Source of the DNA: Gammaproteobacteria bacterium
GTDB lineage: Bacteria > Pseudomonadota > Gammaproteobacteria > Pseudomonadales > Pseudohongiellaceae
DNA: 64,000 nt
Direction of reading: 5' to 3'
Assembly (NCBI GenBank): GCA_029244985.1
Contig: JAQWQD010000028.1
Span: forward strand, 1 to 64,000
Below, piece after piece: positions 49,169 through 56,139 of the stretch (position 1 is the stretch's first letter; every line of letters starts with the position of its first letter). Made by a program: the position numbers and the translations under genes. The notes under the pieces were generated by a model. That model searched no databases and was not told the origin of the DNA. It saw only the letters and a program-made list of their open reading frames with translations.

Positions 49169-49346
49169 GATTCTACCTGTAGATGACGTCATAGGGCTGA
49201 TCCATTTTGAAAGTTTGCTATGAATTTCGCTATGTTACATGAAAATCAGACAGAGGGAATTGTGTAAGCTCAATCAAGAATGGCACCTATCCCCTAGAAT
49301 AGAATATGATCTCCCATACCGTTACTAAAACACAGAGTTAAGATAA

Positions 49347-49565
49347 ATGAATATCGAAATTACTTATTGCATGGCCTGAAACTATCAACCTGATGCTGAC
49401 CGTGTGTCGGCTGAAATCAAAGAAGCGACCGGAGAAGATGCCTCTTTAGTTCCCAGCAGTGGTGGTATCTTCGACGTTAAAGTTGACGGTAATCTTGTGT
49501 TTTCGAAACACAAAGTAGCCAGATTTCCGCAACCAGGGGAAATAAGCCAATTGTTAGCGGAGTGA
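49347..49565 (+). CDS. SelW-like (Rdx family) selenoprotein with in-frame TGA
   Basis: This gene is absent from the ORF track because codon 11 is TGA (49377-49379). Reading TGA as selenocysteine gives a 72-residue protein: MNIEITYCMAU, then NYQPDADRVSAEIKEATGE, LVPSSGGIFDVKVDG and a C-terminal FPQPGEISQLLAE. The Cys-X-X-Sec site after the first strand and the GG-x-F-x-V turn are the signatures of the SelT/SelW/SelH (Rdx) thioredoxin-like family. The coding frame and the family pattern continue well past the TGA to a TGA stop at 49563. GAG lies 9 bases before the ATG. The likely role is thiol redox chemistry in the cytoplasm. selA, selB, selC and selD are not in the window. Confidence 0.85.
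49395..49411 (+). promoter_or_regulatory. Candidate bacterial SECIS hairpin
   Basis: GCTGAC (49395-49400) pairs with GTCGGC (49406-49411), one G-U pair included, around the loop CGTGT. The loop begins 21 bases after the TGA and has a G at its second position. This distance and the small G-bearing apical loop fit the known bacterial SECIS layout bound by SelB. The structure was found by eye and not folded by computer. Confidence 0.6.
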
Positions 49566-49601
49566 GTAAATTTACCACCGCTAATGTTGAGCTCTTCGTT
49601 C

Positions 49602-51290
49602 TCAGTTTTCGATCAGATGATGCTTTGGATCAACCGGGCGCATTAAGGCATTGCTTACCAACGCAATTGCTAACAATCCCGCCATAAGAAACATGGTTGA
49701 GTTGTAGAGGCTGCTAGTTGGGTCATTAGTTCCTATTGGCGCGATTTCCATGAGTCTTGAAATTGTGACTGTATTGGATGCTACCAAAGCTTCTAATTGG
49801 TCGATACCTGCTCCGAATTGTGTCTGAAATGCTGCAGGCTCTACAACGGCAACCAGATCATTGATGGCTTTATTTACTGAGTTTTGGCGCAAGGAGGTAA
49901 TTGCTAGTGGACCGAGCACGCCCGCAGTACTCCATGCTGTTAACAAGCGTCCGTGAATTCCACCTACATACTTCGTACCGAAAATGTCAGCAAGGTATGC
50001 TGGGATGGTTGCGAAACCACCTCCATACATCGTAAAAATAATCATGGTAGCGCCGTAGAAATAAATGAGCCAAATCATGGATGGGCTTGCGCTAACTTGT
50101 TGCGCAGCAAAAGGCACCGAGAGATAAAGTACTATGCCGAGTAAGAAAAAGATCCAATAAGTATTGCGCCTGCCTATGTAGTCTGATGCGCTAGCCCAGA
50201 TAAACCGGCCAACCATATTGAATGCGCTAATCATCACAACATAGGTTGCAGCAAAGGCTGTATCAACAATTTGTGGAAGGGAAGAACCAAAAATTTCTGT
50301 AATCATAGTGCGTGCAACACCAAGCACGCCGATGCCAGCGGTCACATTGAAGCAAAGCACGATCCATAGTTGATAAAACTGCCGGGTCTTTAATGCCTCA
50401 TCAATATGAACATTATGCTTGGATACCAGTTTTCCGCGTTCTTCTTCATTAGGTTCTTTCCACCCGGATGGCTTCCATCCTTCCGCAGGGATACGGTAGG
50501 AAAACGCGGCTATCAACATCACCACAAGATAAATGAGACCTATAACCAAGAATGTTTCTGCTACACCTGTAGCGCCTGTATCAACTACATAGACACCTTC
50601 GGGCCCTGGAATGGCCATGTCTCTGACTTCGCTCGCCCCAACAACAACAACTTCTCTCAGCGCTCCGCCCACTTCAGCAAATCGGCGCCCAGCTTCGGTC
50701 ACTAGATTGACATCGGCAATTGTGCCTAAATAATCTGGTGCTTGATAAAACATACGCATGAAATATTCTTTCATTGGTGTGCCGATCATTGCGCCGCCAC
50801 CAAATCCCATGATCGCCATGCCAGTAGCCATGCCTCTTCGGTCTGGAAACCAGCGAATGAGAGTGCTTACTGGGGAAACATATCCCATGCCTAACCCACA
50901 TCCGCCTATCACGCCATAACCCAGGTACAGCAACCATAGTTGGTGAGTGAAAATACCGATTGCTCCCACCATATAGCCACCGCCCCAGCAGCAGGCAGCA
51001 ACAACACCTACCTTTCGCGGGCCTGCTTCTTCCAACCACCTACCCGCGAAGGCCGCTGCTAAACCCAATGAAACGATAGCAACTGTGAAGACCCATACCA
51101 CGGCACTCAAACTCCAATCATCAGCCGCACTGGTAACAACCCCAAATACACGGGTTAGTGGGGGATTGTAGATACTCCAAGCATAAACTGAGCCTATACA
51201 AAGGTGTATCGCCACAGATGCAATAGGGACCCGCCATCGGTTGTAGTCAGAGGGCGCGATAATGCGTTCTTTAGATAGGAGTCCAGCCAT
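49602..51290 (-). CDS. OFA-family MFS transporter
   Basis: The 562-residue membrane protein has the oxalate/formate antiporter-type signatures HLCIGSVYAWSIYNPPLTR, GGCGLGMGYVSPVSTLIRWFPDRRGMATGMAIMGFGGG and GRFIWASASDYIGRRNTYW. It is longer than the basic 12-helix form. One insert between helices 6 and 7 spans roughly MRMFYQAPDYLG to VVDTGATGV, and a second lies near the C-terminus (KAINDLVAVVEP). Long OFA members with these inserts are known. The substrate is a small carboxylate by family analogy only. Confidence 0.87.
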   Translation of the reverse strand: MAGLLSKERIIAPSDYNRWRVPIASVAIHLCIGSVYAWSIYNPPLTRVFGVVTSAADDWSLSAVVWVFTVAIVSLGLAAAFAGRWLEEAGPRKVGVVAACCWGGGYMVGAIGIFTHQLWLLYLGYGVIGGCGLGMGYVSPVSTLIRWFPDRRGMATGMAIMGFGGGAMIGTPMKEYFMRMFYQAPDYLGTIADVNLVTEAGRRFAEVGGALREVVVVGASEVRDMAIPGPEGVYVVDTGATGVAETFLVIGLIYLVVMLIAAFSYRIPAEGWKPSGWKEPNEEERGKLVSKHNVHIDEALKTRQFYQLWIVLCFNVTAGIGVLGVARTMITEIFGSSLPQIVDTAFAATYVVMISAFNMVGRFIWASASDYIGRRNTYWIFFLLGIVLYLSVPFAAQQVSASPSMIWLIYFYGATMIIFTMYGGGFATIPAYLADIFGTKYVGGIHGRLLTAWSTAGVLGPLAITSLRQNSVNKAINDLVAVVEPAAFQTQFGAGIDQLEALVASNTVTISRLMEIAPIGTNDPTSSLYNSTMFLMAGLLAIALVSNALMRPVDPKHHLIEN

Positions 51291-51400: not shown

Positions 51401-53680
51401 TTAGCGTTGAAATAGATAGGAGAATTTCACAAAGAACTGATCGCCTTCGCGGCGCAGATCATTAGCTATAATTAATTCTCTTTCACCTTCAATGTCTACA
51501 ATATCAAAATTACTTTGGTTAGAGTTGTAGCCCACATAGAAAGCTGACCACGGATTAATGACATAGCGAAGTAGAATGTCAAAATTTAAATTTTCATCAT
51601 CCTTTAGGCGCGTTGCCGGGCCCGCTTCGGTTTTGTCATATTGGGCTATAAACCGTAAAGAAAGCTCTTTCGTAAATTGATAGTTCCAATTTGATCGAAC
51701 AATCTCATTAGAAAAAACTTTCGTCCCACCTTGAGTTTCAAGCTCAGTAAGAAAATAAGTGTTAGCTATGCTTAATTGGTCCATGGGTCTAACAAGTATG
51801 TTTAGATCTATTCTGCTTGTGTCTGCAACAGCTGGCAGATACCCAACTTGCGGAACTAAGTTTAAGGTAGAGCCTTGCTGGTATCTTCCTCGTATCTGAA
51901 CCGCTTCAAATGTATTATTGTTCAGGCCCACTTGCCAAGTATCATAATCGTAAGATCTGACTGAGTTTAATCCCGGAAAATCAATAGGTCTGAGTATTTC
52001 TTCAATATCGCTCCAATTGAAATTCAAGGTCGTCGTCTCAAAACGAAAATCAATTCTTGGCTGAAGTTGTGTATAAATTTTTTCTCCTTGCCTGTCCTCT
52101 AGATAGACTCCGAAAACACTTCCACCCCATCTAGTTAAGGCTGAGTTTTCGGGATAGAAATTCAAACCTGAACTCTGGTGAACACCCGAGGTGTTTGGCT
52201 TTGACCAGCGGTTCTGGAAACCTAACTCCGTTCTGAAATCTGAAGTTGTTTCTAAAAAGTGAGTGTGGTTTGTATACGTTCGGCCCTCACGGTTTATCAT
52301 CATGTTGCGCTGGTAGCCGGTAGTTTCAGAACCTCCAGCGGAAGGCTCACTCTCGGTTCCAATCAGTTGCATTTGAGTTGACCAATTTTCGTTTAGTAAG
52401 AAGCGGCCATCAAAGCTGAGCACTCTGTTGTAGCCATCTCCCAGCTGACGCTCGGTGGCTAAGAAGCCTATTCGATCTTGATCACCAAGGTCTCTGAATC
52501 CGCGAATTATAGCAATGTTGGCTTTTTCGCCTCTAAGCGGGTCATCAGTATCTCTATTCATTCCTGGTGCGGCATCATTGATTAGAATGCTGCCAAAGCC
52601 ATATTCACCAGACCTTCCGGTCAATCTTATTCCGCCCTCTGGATCGACAATTCTTCTGGTAAATACGAGAGTTGAATCAGTTGCAAAGAAGTCGGCATTC
52701 TCAATAAAGAACGGTCGACGTTCTGGGAATTGAACTTCATAACGTTCATTCACGGTGACCTGTGGTTCATCAGATTCAATTTGACTAAAGTCAGGGTTTA
52801 GCGTTAGGTCCAGTGCCCAGCTGTCATTGAAAACAAATTTAGCATCCAGTCCAACTTCTTGCTCTGAATATGTATCAAATTTGGGTCCACCAAAAGCCGA
52901 ACGGTCGAGGGCATCAACTTCTCGAGCAAAGAAGAAAGGTATAACTTGATAATTATTTCCAGGGGAAACATCTTTAATGCCAGTAAGCGGAGCAGCCTGA
53001 TTTAATCGGCCCTCGACATTCACAGAATATTCAGGCCAATGTGCCTCTTCCCCATATCTGGGGATGCGCCTATTAAACTGAATACGCCATGTTTGCTCAT
53101 CGGATTCATCAAAACGAAGACTTCTAAGCGGTATCGCAAACGAGACCATATATCCCTGATTGGTTAACTCACCCTCGCTGAACCAAACTGCATCAAAAGT
53201 TGAATCAAAGCCTCCTCTCCTGGAAGAGCTTTCCGTCCACCTTGAATCAGATTGGATACCCCGGGAGTTTGAATAGAAAGCAAATGCAGACCGTTGATCG
53301 TTAAAGGTATCCACCATAAATCCCACATGATCATCTTGAAAAATATTCTCCCGGGGAGACAGGTTGGATCTTATAAGTTCCGGATTGGAATCAAATGCCA
53401 GAAAAACGACGTGGAGATTATTTTGATCGTAGCCTGCATAAACTTCAGTTCGTTGTGTCGAGGCTTGACCAGGATATGGCTCGCGCTGGATGAAATTCTC
53501 AATTTTACTCATTGATCTAGCGAGAGGAGTGTTAGGTTGCATCCCTTCAAAATCTGCTAGTGTTGGTTCTCCTTCAACACGCGGTATCGTCAGGCTGGGT
53601 TCCGCGGCGTTATTAGGAATGGCTATGGATATTATTAAAACTGCGAATAGTGAATAAGACAAAAACTTCACTGAGTTCAT
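51401..53680 (-). CDS. DUF5916 outer-membrane protein, copy 1
   Basis: The 759-residue protein has a signal peptide (LFAVLIISIAIPNNAA). An N-terminal carbohydrate-binding-like domain (CBM9 type) lies over about residues 30-230 (TEVYAGYDQNNLHVVFLAFDS, FAIPLRSLRFDE). The rest is beta-barrel-like and ends in FFVKFSYLFQR. A strongly conserved block is FPERRPFFIENADFFATDS. The DUF5916 family is unassigned in function. It is the downstream member of a tandem pair and has the same length as copy 2. Confidence 0.83.
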   Translation of the reverse strand: MNSVKFLSYSLFAVLIISIAIPNNAAEPSLTIPRVEGEPTLADFEGMQPNTPLARSMSKIENFIQREPYPGQASTQRTEVYAGYDQNNLHVVFLAFDSNPELIRSNLSPRENIFQDDHVGFMVDTFNDQRSAFAFYSNSRGIQSDSRWTESSSRRGGFDSTFDAVWFSEGELTNQGYMVSFAIPLRSLRFDESDEQTWRIQFNRRIPRYGEEAHWPEYSVNVEGRLNQAAPLTGIKDVSPGNNYQVIPFFFAREVDALDRSAFGGPKFDTYSEQEVGLDAKFVFNDSWALDLTLNPDFSQIESDEPQVTVNERYEVQFPERRPFFIENADFFATDSTLVFTRRIVDPEGGIRLTGRSGEYGFGSILINDAAPGMNRDTDDPLRGEKANIAIIRGFRDLGDQDRIGFLATERQLGDGYNRVLSFDGRFLLNENWSTQMQLIGTESEPSAGGSETTGYQRNMMINREGRTYTNHTHFLETTSDFRTELGFQNRWSKPNTSGVHQSSGLNFYPENSALTRWGGSVFGVYLEDRQGEKIYTQLQPRIDFRFETTTLNFNWSDIEEILRPIDFPGLNSVRSYDYDTWQVGLNNNTFEAVQIRGRYQQGSTLNLVPQVGYLPAVADTSRIDLNILVRPMDQLSIANTYFLTELETQGGTKVFSNEIVRSNWNYQFTKELSLRFIAQYDKTEAGPATRLKDDENLNFDILLRYVINPWSAFYVGYNSNQSNFDIVDIEGERELIIANDLRREGDQFFVKFSYLFQR

Positions 53681-53859: not shown

Positions 53860-56139
53860 CTAGCGCTGAAAAAGGTAAGAGAATTTGACAAAAAATTGAT
53901 CCCCATCACGGCGCAGATCATTAGCTACTATTAACTCTCTTTCTCCTTCCATATCTACAATATCAAAATTACTTTGATTTGAATTGTAACCAACATAAAA
54001 AGCTGACCAAGGATTAATTACATAGCGGAGGAGGACGTCGAAATTTAAATTTTCATCATCTTTTAGTCGTGTTGCTGGACCTGCTTCGGTTTTATCGTAT
54101 TGCGCAATAAGCCGTAAAGAAAGTTCTTTTGTGAACTGATAATTCCAATTAGAGCGAACAATCTCATTAGAGAAGATTTTAGTACCACCTTGAGTTTCGA
54201 GCTCAGTTAGAAAATAAGTATTATCTATGCTCAGCTGCTCAATTGGCCTGATCAATACATTGAAATCTATCCGGGTAGTATCAGCGACAGATGGGAGGTA
54301 GCCGATTTGTGGAACTAGGTTTAGTGTGGAGCCTTGTCTATAGTTAGCATCGAACTGCAATCTCTCAAGAGTGTTATTATCGAATCCAATTTGCCAAGAA
54401 TCATAATCGTATGCGCGAGTCGTATTTAGGCCAGGAAATTCTCCTGCCTTAATAACTTCGGCATATTCAGTCCATCGCAAATCTAACCCGGCTGTATCAA
54501 ACCTAAGGCTGAGGCCGGGCTCAAGTTCTGAATAAATCTTCGCACCTTGTATGTCTTCAAGATAAGCACCATTTGCCATCACACTCCAACGGTTTATCAA
54601 AGAATCCTGGGGATAGAAATTTATTGTTGATCTTTGGTGTGCGCCAGAGGTATTAGGTTTGAACCAGCGGTTCTGAAAACCTAATTCCGTTCTGAAATCT
54701 GAAGTCGTCTCTACAAAGTGCGTGTGATTAGTGTAGGTTCGCCCTTGACGATTGAGACTTATATTCCGCTGATATCCGGTAGTTTCAGAGCCTTCAGTCG
54801 ACGGCTCACTCTCGGTTCCAACTAACTGCATTTGAGTTGACCAGTTTTCGTTCAATAAGAAGCGACTATCAAAGCTGAGAACTCTGTTATAGCCATCTCC
54901 CAATTGACGCTCAGTCGCCAGGAAACCGATACGATCTTGGTCGCCTATGTCTCTAAACCCTCTAATTATGGCGATATTAGCTTTTTCGCCTCTAAGTGGA
55001 TCATCGGCACCCCTATTTAGACCTGGCGCAGCGTCATTTATAAGGATGCCGCCAAATCCGTATTCTCCCGATCGTCCCGTCAGTCGGATTCCGCCTTCCG
55101 GATCTACTATCCTTCTGGTAAATACGAGGGTTGAATCTGTTGAGAAAAAATCCGCATTCTCGATGAAGAAGGGCCGGCGCTCAGGAAATTGAACTTCGAA
55201 TCGTTCGTTGACAGTAACTTGCGGTTCATCTGATTCAATTTGACTGAAGTCAGGGTTAAGCGTGAGGTCTACCGCCCAGCTGTCGTTGAAAACGAATTTC
55301 GCGTCGAGCCCAATCTCCTGTTCAGATGAGGTATCAAATTTGGGCCCGCCAGAAGCGTTTCTATTTAGAGAATCAAGTTCTCGTGCGAAGAAGAAGGGAA
55401 TGATCTGGGAATTATTCCCGGGAGAGACGTCTCGAATTCCTGTTAGGGTTGCTGCTTGGTTTAAGCGACCGTCAATATTTATTGAGTATTCTGGCCAGTA
55501 GACGCTTTCCCCATATCTTGGGATATCCCTTCTAAATTGAACACGCCAAATTTGCTCTTCCGATTCGTCAAAGCGTAGACTTCTTAAAGGAATCGTAATT
55601 GCTACTATATAGCCTTGTTCATTTATTGTGCCCTCGCTAAACCAAACTGCATCAAACGTGCGATCAAACCCAGAACGCCTTCCCGAGCCTTCTGTCCACC
55701 TAGCATCCAATTGAATTCCGTTAGGATTAGAGGCAAAGGCGAACGACGATCTTTGATCATTAAAGGTATCGAACATTACGGAAATCCTATCATCCTCAAA
55801 GATGCTTTCCCGCGGAGCTAGATTAGATCTAATTAGTTCCGGGTTAGTATCAAAGGAAAGAAAAATTACGTGAATGTTCTCTTGGTTGTAGCCAATGTAG
55901 GCTTCGGTAGATTGAGTAGGCATCTCGCCGTCATATGGTTCCCGCTGGATAAAGTCTTCAACCTTAGCCATTGATCTCGCTAGTGGTGTGATGGGTTGCA
56001 TCCCTTCAAAATCGGAAAGTGCAGGTTCACCATCGATACGCGGTATCATTAACTCGCTTTCAGCGGCATAATTTAGCGTGGCGATTGACATTGTTAATAC
56101 TGTGAAAAGTGAGTAAGACAAAAACTTCACTGAATTCAT
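53860..56139 (-). CDS. DUF5916 outer-membrane protein, copy 2
   Basis: A second 759-residue DUF5916 protein with the same domain layout and signal peptide start (MNSVKFLSYSLF) as copy 1. The middle block around FPERRPFFIENADFFSTDS and the last 90 residues are nearly identical to copy 1, while residues of roughly 495-620 differ widely. The first 40 bases upstream of both starts are also similar (for example GCGAATA and GGATTATT elements), so the duplication included the promoter region. Function unknown; probably in the outer membrane. Confidence 0.83.
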   Translation of the reverse strand: MNSVKFLSYSLFTVLTMSIATLNYAAESELMIPRIDGEPALSDFEGMQPITPLARSMAKVEDFIQREPYDGEMPTQSTEAYIGYNQENIHVIFLSFDTNPELIRSNLAPRESIFEDDRISVMFDTFNDQRSSFAFASNPNGIQLDARWTEGSGRRSGFDRTFDAVWFSEGTINEQGYIVAITIPLRSLRFDESEEQIWRVQFRRDIPRYGESVYWPEYSINIDGRLNQAATLTGIRDVSPGNNSQIIPFFFARELDSLNRNASGGPKFDTSSEQEIGLDAKFVFNDSWAVDLTLNPDFSQIESDEPQVTVNERFEVQFPERRPFFIENADFFSTDSTLVFTRRIVDPEGGIRLTGRSGEYGFGGILINDAAPGLNRGADDPLRGEKANIAIIRGFRDIGDQDRIGFLATERQLGDGYNRVLSFDSRFLLNENWSTQMQLVGTESEPSTEGSETTGYQRNISLNRQGRTYTNHTHFVETTSDFRTELGFQNRWFKPNTSGAHQRSTINFYPQDSLINRWSVMANGAYLEDIQGAKIYSELEPGLSLRFDTAGLDLRWTEYAEVIKAGEFPGLNTTRAYDYDSWQIGFDNNTLERLQFDANYRQGSTLNLVPQIGYLPSVADTTRIDFNVLIRPIEQLSIDNTYFLTELETQGGTKIFSNEIVRSNWNYQFTKELSLRLIAQYDKTEAGPATRLKDDENLNFDVLLRYVINPWSAFYVGYNSNQSNFDIVDMEGERELIVANDLRRDGDQFFVKFSYLFQR

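Follow-up and report, generated by a model that had tools for sequence, protein, structure and literature searches.

A SelW-like gene with an in-frame TGA, predicted to encode a selenoprotein, in an OM182-like gammaproteobacterium

The SelW-like locus

The window, i.e., the whole stretch of 64,000 nucleotides that was analyzed, carries on its forward strand a SelW-like (Rdx family) gene for a predicted selenoprotein (49347–49565, 72 residues, terminal stop TGA), which contains an in-frame TGA at codon 11 (49377–49379). The gene stands alone in the interval from 49192 to 49602, in a neighborhood where an alkaline phosphatase gene and an MFS transporter gene converge, and its surroundings are ordinary: astA, an aldehyde dehydrogenase that is astD-like judging by its position, astB, and the alkaline phosphatase and MFS transporter genes themselves. 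No tRNA was found in the window, and a search of its entire length against Rfam at gathering thresholds gave no match. Further along, two very similar DUF5916-type genes of 759 residues each lie in tandem on the reverse strand (51401–53680 and 53860–56139), a tandem duplication of what is likely an outer-membrane protein.

The first-pass annotation had described a 72-codon frame whose codon 11 is TGA, in the context C-M-A-(TGA), and which keeps the pattern of the Rdx family, and both points are borne out. Translated with TGA as U, the product reads MNIEITYCMAUNYQPDADRVSAEIKEATGEDASLVPSSGGIFDVKVDGNLVFSKHKVARFPQPGEISQLLAE and is intact up to the terminal TGA. With codon 11 entered as Cys, it matches the Pfam profile Rdx (PF10262) over residues 2–70 (E = 3.6e-18, 66 bits for a cut-off of 22.6), TIGR02174 (53.3 bits, cut-off 34.2) and, as an equivalog, NCBIfam NF041051 (SelT/SelW/SelH family (seleno)protein; 89.2 bits, cut-off 88); given the Pfam and NF041051 matches, the frame is not a chance one. 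By sequence comparison the product also matches solved Rdx proteins, including 2fa8, from which we infer a thioredoxin-like fold. The redox motif lies near the N-terminus as C8-M-A-U11, and the CxxU form is found in all 37 sequences that we compared (36 relatives and the window gene).

Conservation of the TGA codon in relatives

One scan of GTDB genomes yielded the 36 relatives, which are spread over Gammaproteobacteria, Deltaproteobacteria, Planctomycetota, Verrucomicrobia, Gemmatimonadetes, Holophagae, SAR324, Dehalococcoidia, Actinomycetes, and others. The first-pass annotation expected Cys or Sec at codon 11; we found TGA at this position in 37/37 sequences and Cys in none. As codon 11 was absent from the search patterns and the alignment step penalizes stops, the sampling was not biased toward TGA. 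The closest record, OM182 bacterium MED-G28, has an identical gene (0 differences over 219 nt), with an upstream flank that diverges from the window by 0.6–0.7%. When the codons after the TGA are compared with those of the four closest divergent homologs (L021–L024), dN amounts to 0.20–0.22 and dS to 1.2–2.7, dS thus being about six to twelve times dN, which points to strong purifying selection 3′ of the TGA.

These comparisons bear on two other ways to read the locus. In the first, the gene would be a decaying SelW-like pseudogene whose codon 11 either mutated to a stop or was misread in sequencing; the TGA does break the frame in the window sequence, yet each of the 36 relatives, across phyla, has it at this codon too, and this conservation refutes the pseudogene reading, whose probability we consider negligible. 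A dN far below dS after the TGA excludes decay, no other disruption is present, and the genome encodes the sel machinery (see below). The decay among relatives that the first-pass annotation had named as speaking against its proposal was not seen either, since all 37 frames are open with a TGA solely at codon 11. In the second, UGA would be an ordinary stop and the conserved frame downstream would be expressed separately from an internal start. An open frame does exist there, and nothing further speaks for it, but the Rdx profile match begins at residue 2, codons 1–10, among them the one for the invariant Cys, are conserved in frame with the rest, and a product begun after the TGA would have neither the redox motif nor the first strand. 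We therefore give this second reading hardly any credence.

Within the same order, the TGA form of SelW was detected in 3 of 116 genomes, all three of them selA-positive, and selA itself in 13 of the 116; random chance would place three picks all within the selA genomes with a probability of ∼0.001, a figure that ignores kinship. Eighteen other genomes of this set encode more distant Rdx proteins that have no internal stop, and those that were aligned display CxxC. No SelW match was found in a genome of the same genus (G082) or in one of the same family (G045), both selA-positive, and the SelW-like gene is thus dispensable in this group, its presence being patchy. The viral contigs searched for SelW-like relatives contained none, and the plasmids searched contained distant Rdx relatives only (<45% identity).

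A covarying SECIS hairpin downstream of the TGA

The evidence extends beyond that of the first-pass annotation, as the TGA is followed by a predicted bacterial SECIS hairpin (49394–49412, forward strand) that shows covariation. It consists of a 6-bp stem (GCUGAC/GUCGGC) and an apical loop CGUGU placed 21 nt after the TGA, with a minimum free energy of -7.8 kcal/mol, values which all agree with the published constraints on bacterial SECIS elements (PMC13188914); the outer pair between 49394 and 49412 is unformed in the window sequence. The bacterial SECIS model requires a guanine at the first or second position of the loop (PMC13188914), and the only invariant loop letter across relatives, the G at column 26, is precisely this guanine.

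Folding of a single sequence proved too weak to serve as proof of the element: tested alone against shuffles, the window hairpin is unremarkable over 40 nt (z = -1.8), and z is ∼0 for longer stretches and from ∼0 to a mean of -0.8 with synonymous-codon shuffles, a poor control in this case since the codon pool is drawn from the same constrained stretch. The case for the SECIS consequently rests on the comparison across relatives. Among 32 distinct sequences, the seven column pairs of the stem are paired in 86.6% of cells, and 29 cells are changed on both sides, a level reached by none of 500 shuffles. When the stem partner is slid by 1–3 nt, pairing drops to 18–57%, and covariation, 0.43 in the true register, is at most 0.13.

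Selenocysteine machinery and further selenoprotein candidates in the host genome

The host assembly (3.2 Mb, 76 contigs, 95.7% complete) is probably a metagenome-assembled genome, and we assume that the contig with the sel genes and that with the SelW-like gene belong to one organism. Based on the gene match to MED-G28, we refer to this organism as an OM182-like gammaproteobacterium. The first-pass annotation had argued that selA, selB, selD and tRNA-Sec should be needed, and all four were found above cut-off on a single contig (C50): selA with 576 bits, selB with 398, selD with 289, and one tRNA-Sec with 61.3 bits (cut-off 47), to which ARAGORN assigns the anticodon TCA. A lack of sel genes, which the first-pass annotation had named as speaking against its proposal, is thereby ruled out for this genome. 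The SelD (L018 1393–3666, contig C50) is a Cys form (CAGCG) with an FAD-dependent oxidoreductase fused to its N-terminus, Ndh-type by resemblance; Ndh-SelD fusions are common in the sea and always of the Cys form (PMC2398784). A tRNA 2-selenouridine synthase is encoded beside the selenocysteine pathway, and selenium is therefore probably used in two ways by this host.

At least seven further genes of the host have exactly one internal TGA each, a lower bound, as the tally comes from a few redox families searched with stops read through. Six are of the AhpC/TSA type (peroxiredoxin-like; L082, L083, L084, L085, L086, and L087, on contigs C22, C26, C5, C47, C71, and C49, respectively) and very probably encode selenoproteins, the TGA lying in WUPYC (L083, L084, L087), WUPFC (L085), GGUTMQC (L082), or WUGC (L086). 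The seventh, an AhpD-like gene with its TGA in CFYU (L088 1–1500, contig C47, match at 538–693), is a probable selenoprotein gene. No Sec-type formate dehydrogenase was found above cut-off in the host genome, nor a thioredoxin family member with an internal TGA.

With several host genes open through a TGA, one could also suppose that the genetic code itself has changed and that TGA stands for Trp or another residue. Yet TGA ends 6 of the 41 long ORFs of the window, where read-through would add only 2–35 codons; as an ordinary stop of these ORFs, it indicates a standard code with selenocysteine recoding. Moreover, the internal TGAs occupy sites of redox-active Cys in such proteins and their homologs (CMAU, WUPYC, GGUTMQC), and the tRNA-Sec(TCA) of the genome is canonical, so that a changed code appears extremely improbable.

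The likely selenoprotein genes also share a type of loop. In six of the eight, among them SelW (49401–49404 in the window), CGTG follows the TGA at a distance of 20 or 21 nt, as compared to 9 of the 2390 TGA triplets on both strands of the window, although the motif was picked after inspection and some of the eight genes are paralogs, which makes this enrichment a lead only. The two exceptions are L087, with GGTC in place of CGTG, and L088, whose CGTG lies at 24 nt. The loops of SelW relatives in other phyla are mostly AGUC, AGUU, or GGUC. A CGUG loop 20–21 nt after the UGA, unlike the loops in most other bacteria with the same SelW gene, may be common to nearly all selenoprotein genes of this lineage, which encode partly unrelated proteins, and this might suggest that the RNA-binding domain of SelB has co-adapted to a clade-specific loop, a tentative idea that we hold to be rather unlikely.

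Proposed function and comparison with known selenoproteins

In bacterial selenocysteine decoding, SelB and Sec-tRNA-Sec bind the SECIS hairpin at the ribosome, selenocysteine is inserted, and termination is avoided. Taking the sequence evidence together, the SelW-like (Rdx) gene almost certainly encodes a small thioredoxin-fold thiol/selenol oxidoreductase whose codon-11 UGA would be decoded as selenocysteine by means of its SECIS. SelB with Sec-tRNA-Sec would bind the hairpin 3′ of this UGA at the ribosome, leading to selenocysteine instead of termination, and, by likeness to other CxxU redox proteins, the Cys8–Sec11 pair could then form a reversible selenenylsulfide. The decoding proposed by the first-pass annotation is thus supported by the TGA conserved in 37/37 sequences, the sel genes, and the covarying SECIS.

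The gene leaves the picture of selenocysteine decoding unchanged. What it adds is an OM182-like genome that has a full selenocysteine pathway and in which eight or more genes likely encode selenoproteins; we found no mention of OM182 together with selenocysteine or selenoproteins in open-access papers. Since standard gene callers can truncate or miss such genes, the use of selenium by uncultured marine gammaproteobacteria may be under-counted.

Among known proteins, those of NCBIfam NF041051 (SelTWH_Campy) are matched over the full length of the window protein, barely above the equivalog cut-off, and the name of this family points to Campylobacter, whereas the host here is a gammaproteobacterium. 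The Rdx proteins of the Cys type from the same order (L059–L076) and the solved Atu0228 (2fa8) share with the window protein the family and the position of the Cys-x-x-Cys motif, but they are 28–37% identical to it, encode CxxC by TGC or TGT, are longer, and have other conserved stretches after the motif. A third close parallel is found in the marine SelW-like selenoproteins. In 2008, Zhang and Gladyshev reported on this family and how abundant it is in the sea, and also on the Ndh-SelD fusion (PMC2398784); with 427 Sec versus 56 Cys forms in the GOS data, the SelW-like family was the most abundant prokaryotic selenoprotein family (PMC2398784), and the scarcity of Cys forms in Sec-using organisms had been noted in 2006 (PMC1794560). 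Like the window gene, these genes have CxxU, a bacterial SECIS after the UGA, and a Sec form that is commoner than the Cys form (PMC2398784), and only the OM182-like host is newly assigned here. The reading of the window gene is right and has good support, but its kind is an ordinary one, the SelW-like family being already known among the commonest marine selenoproteins.
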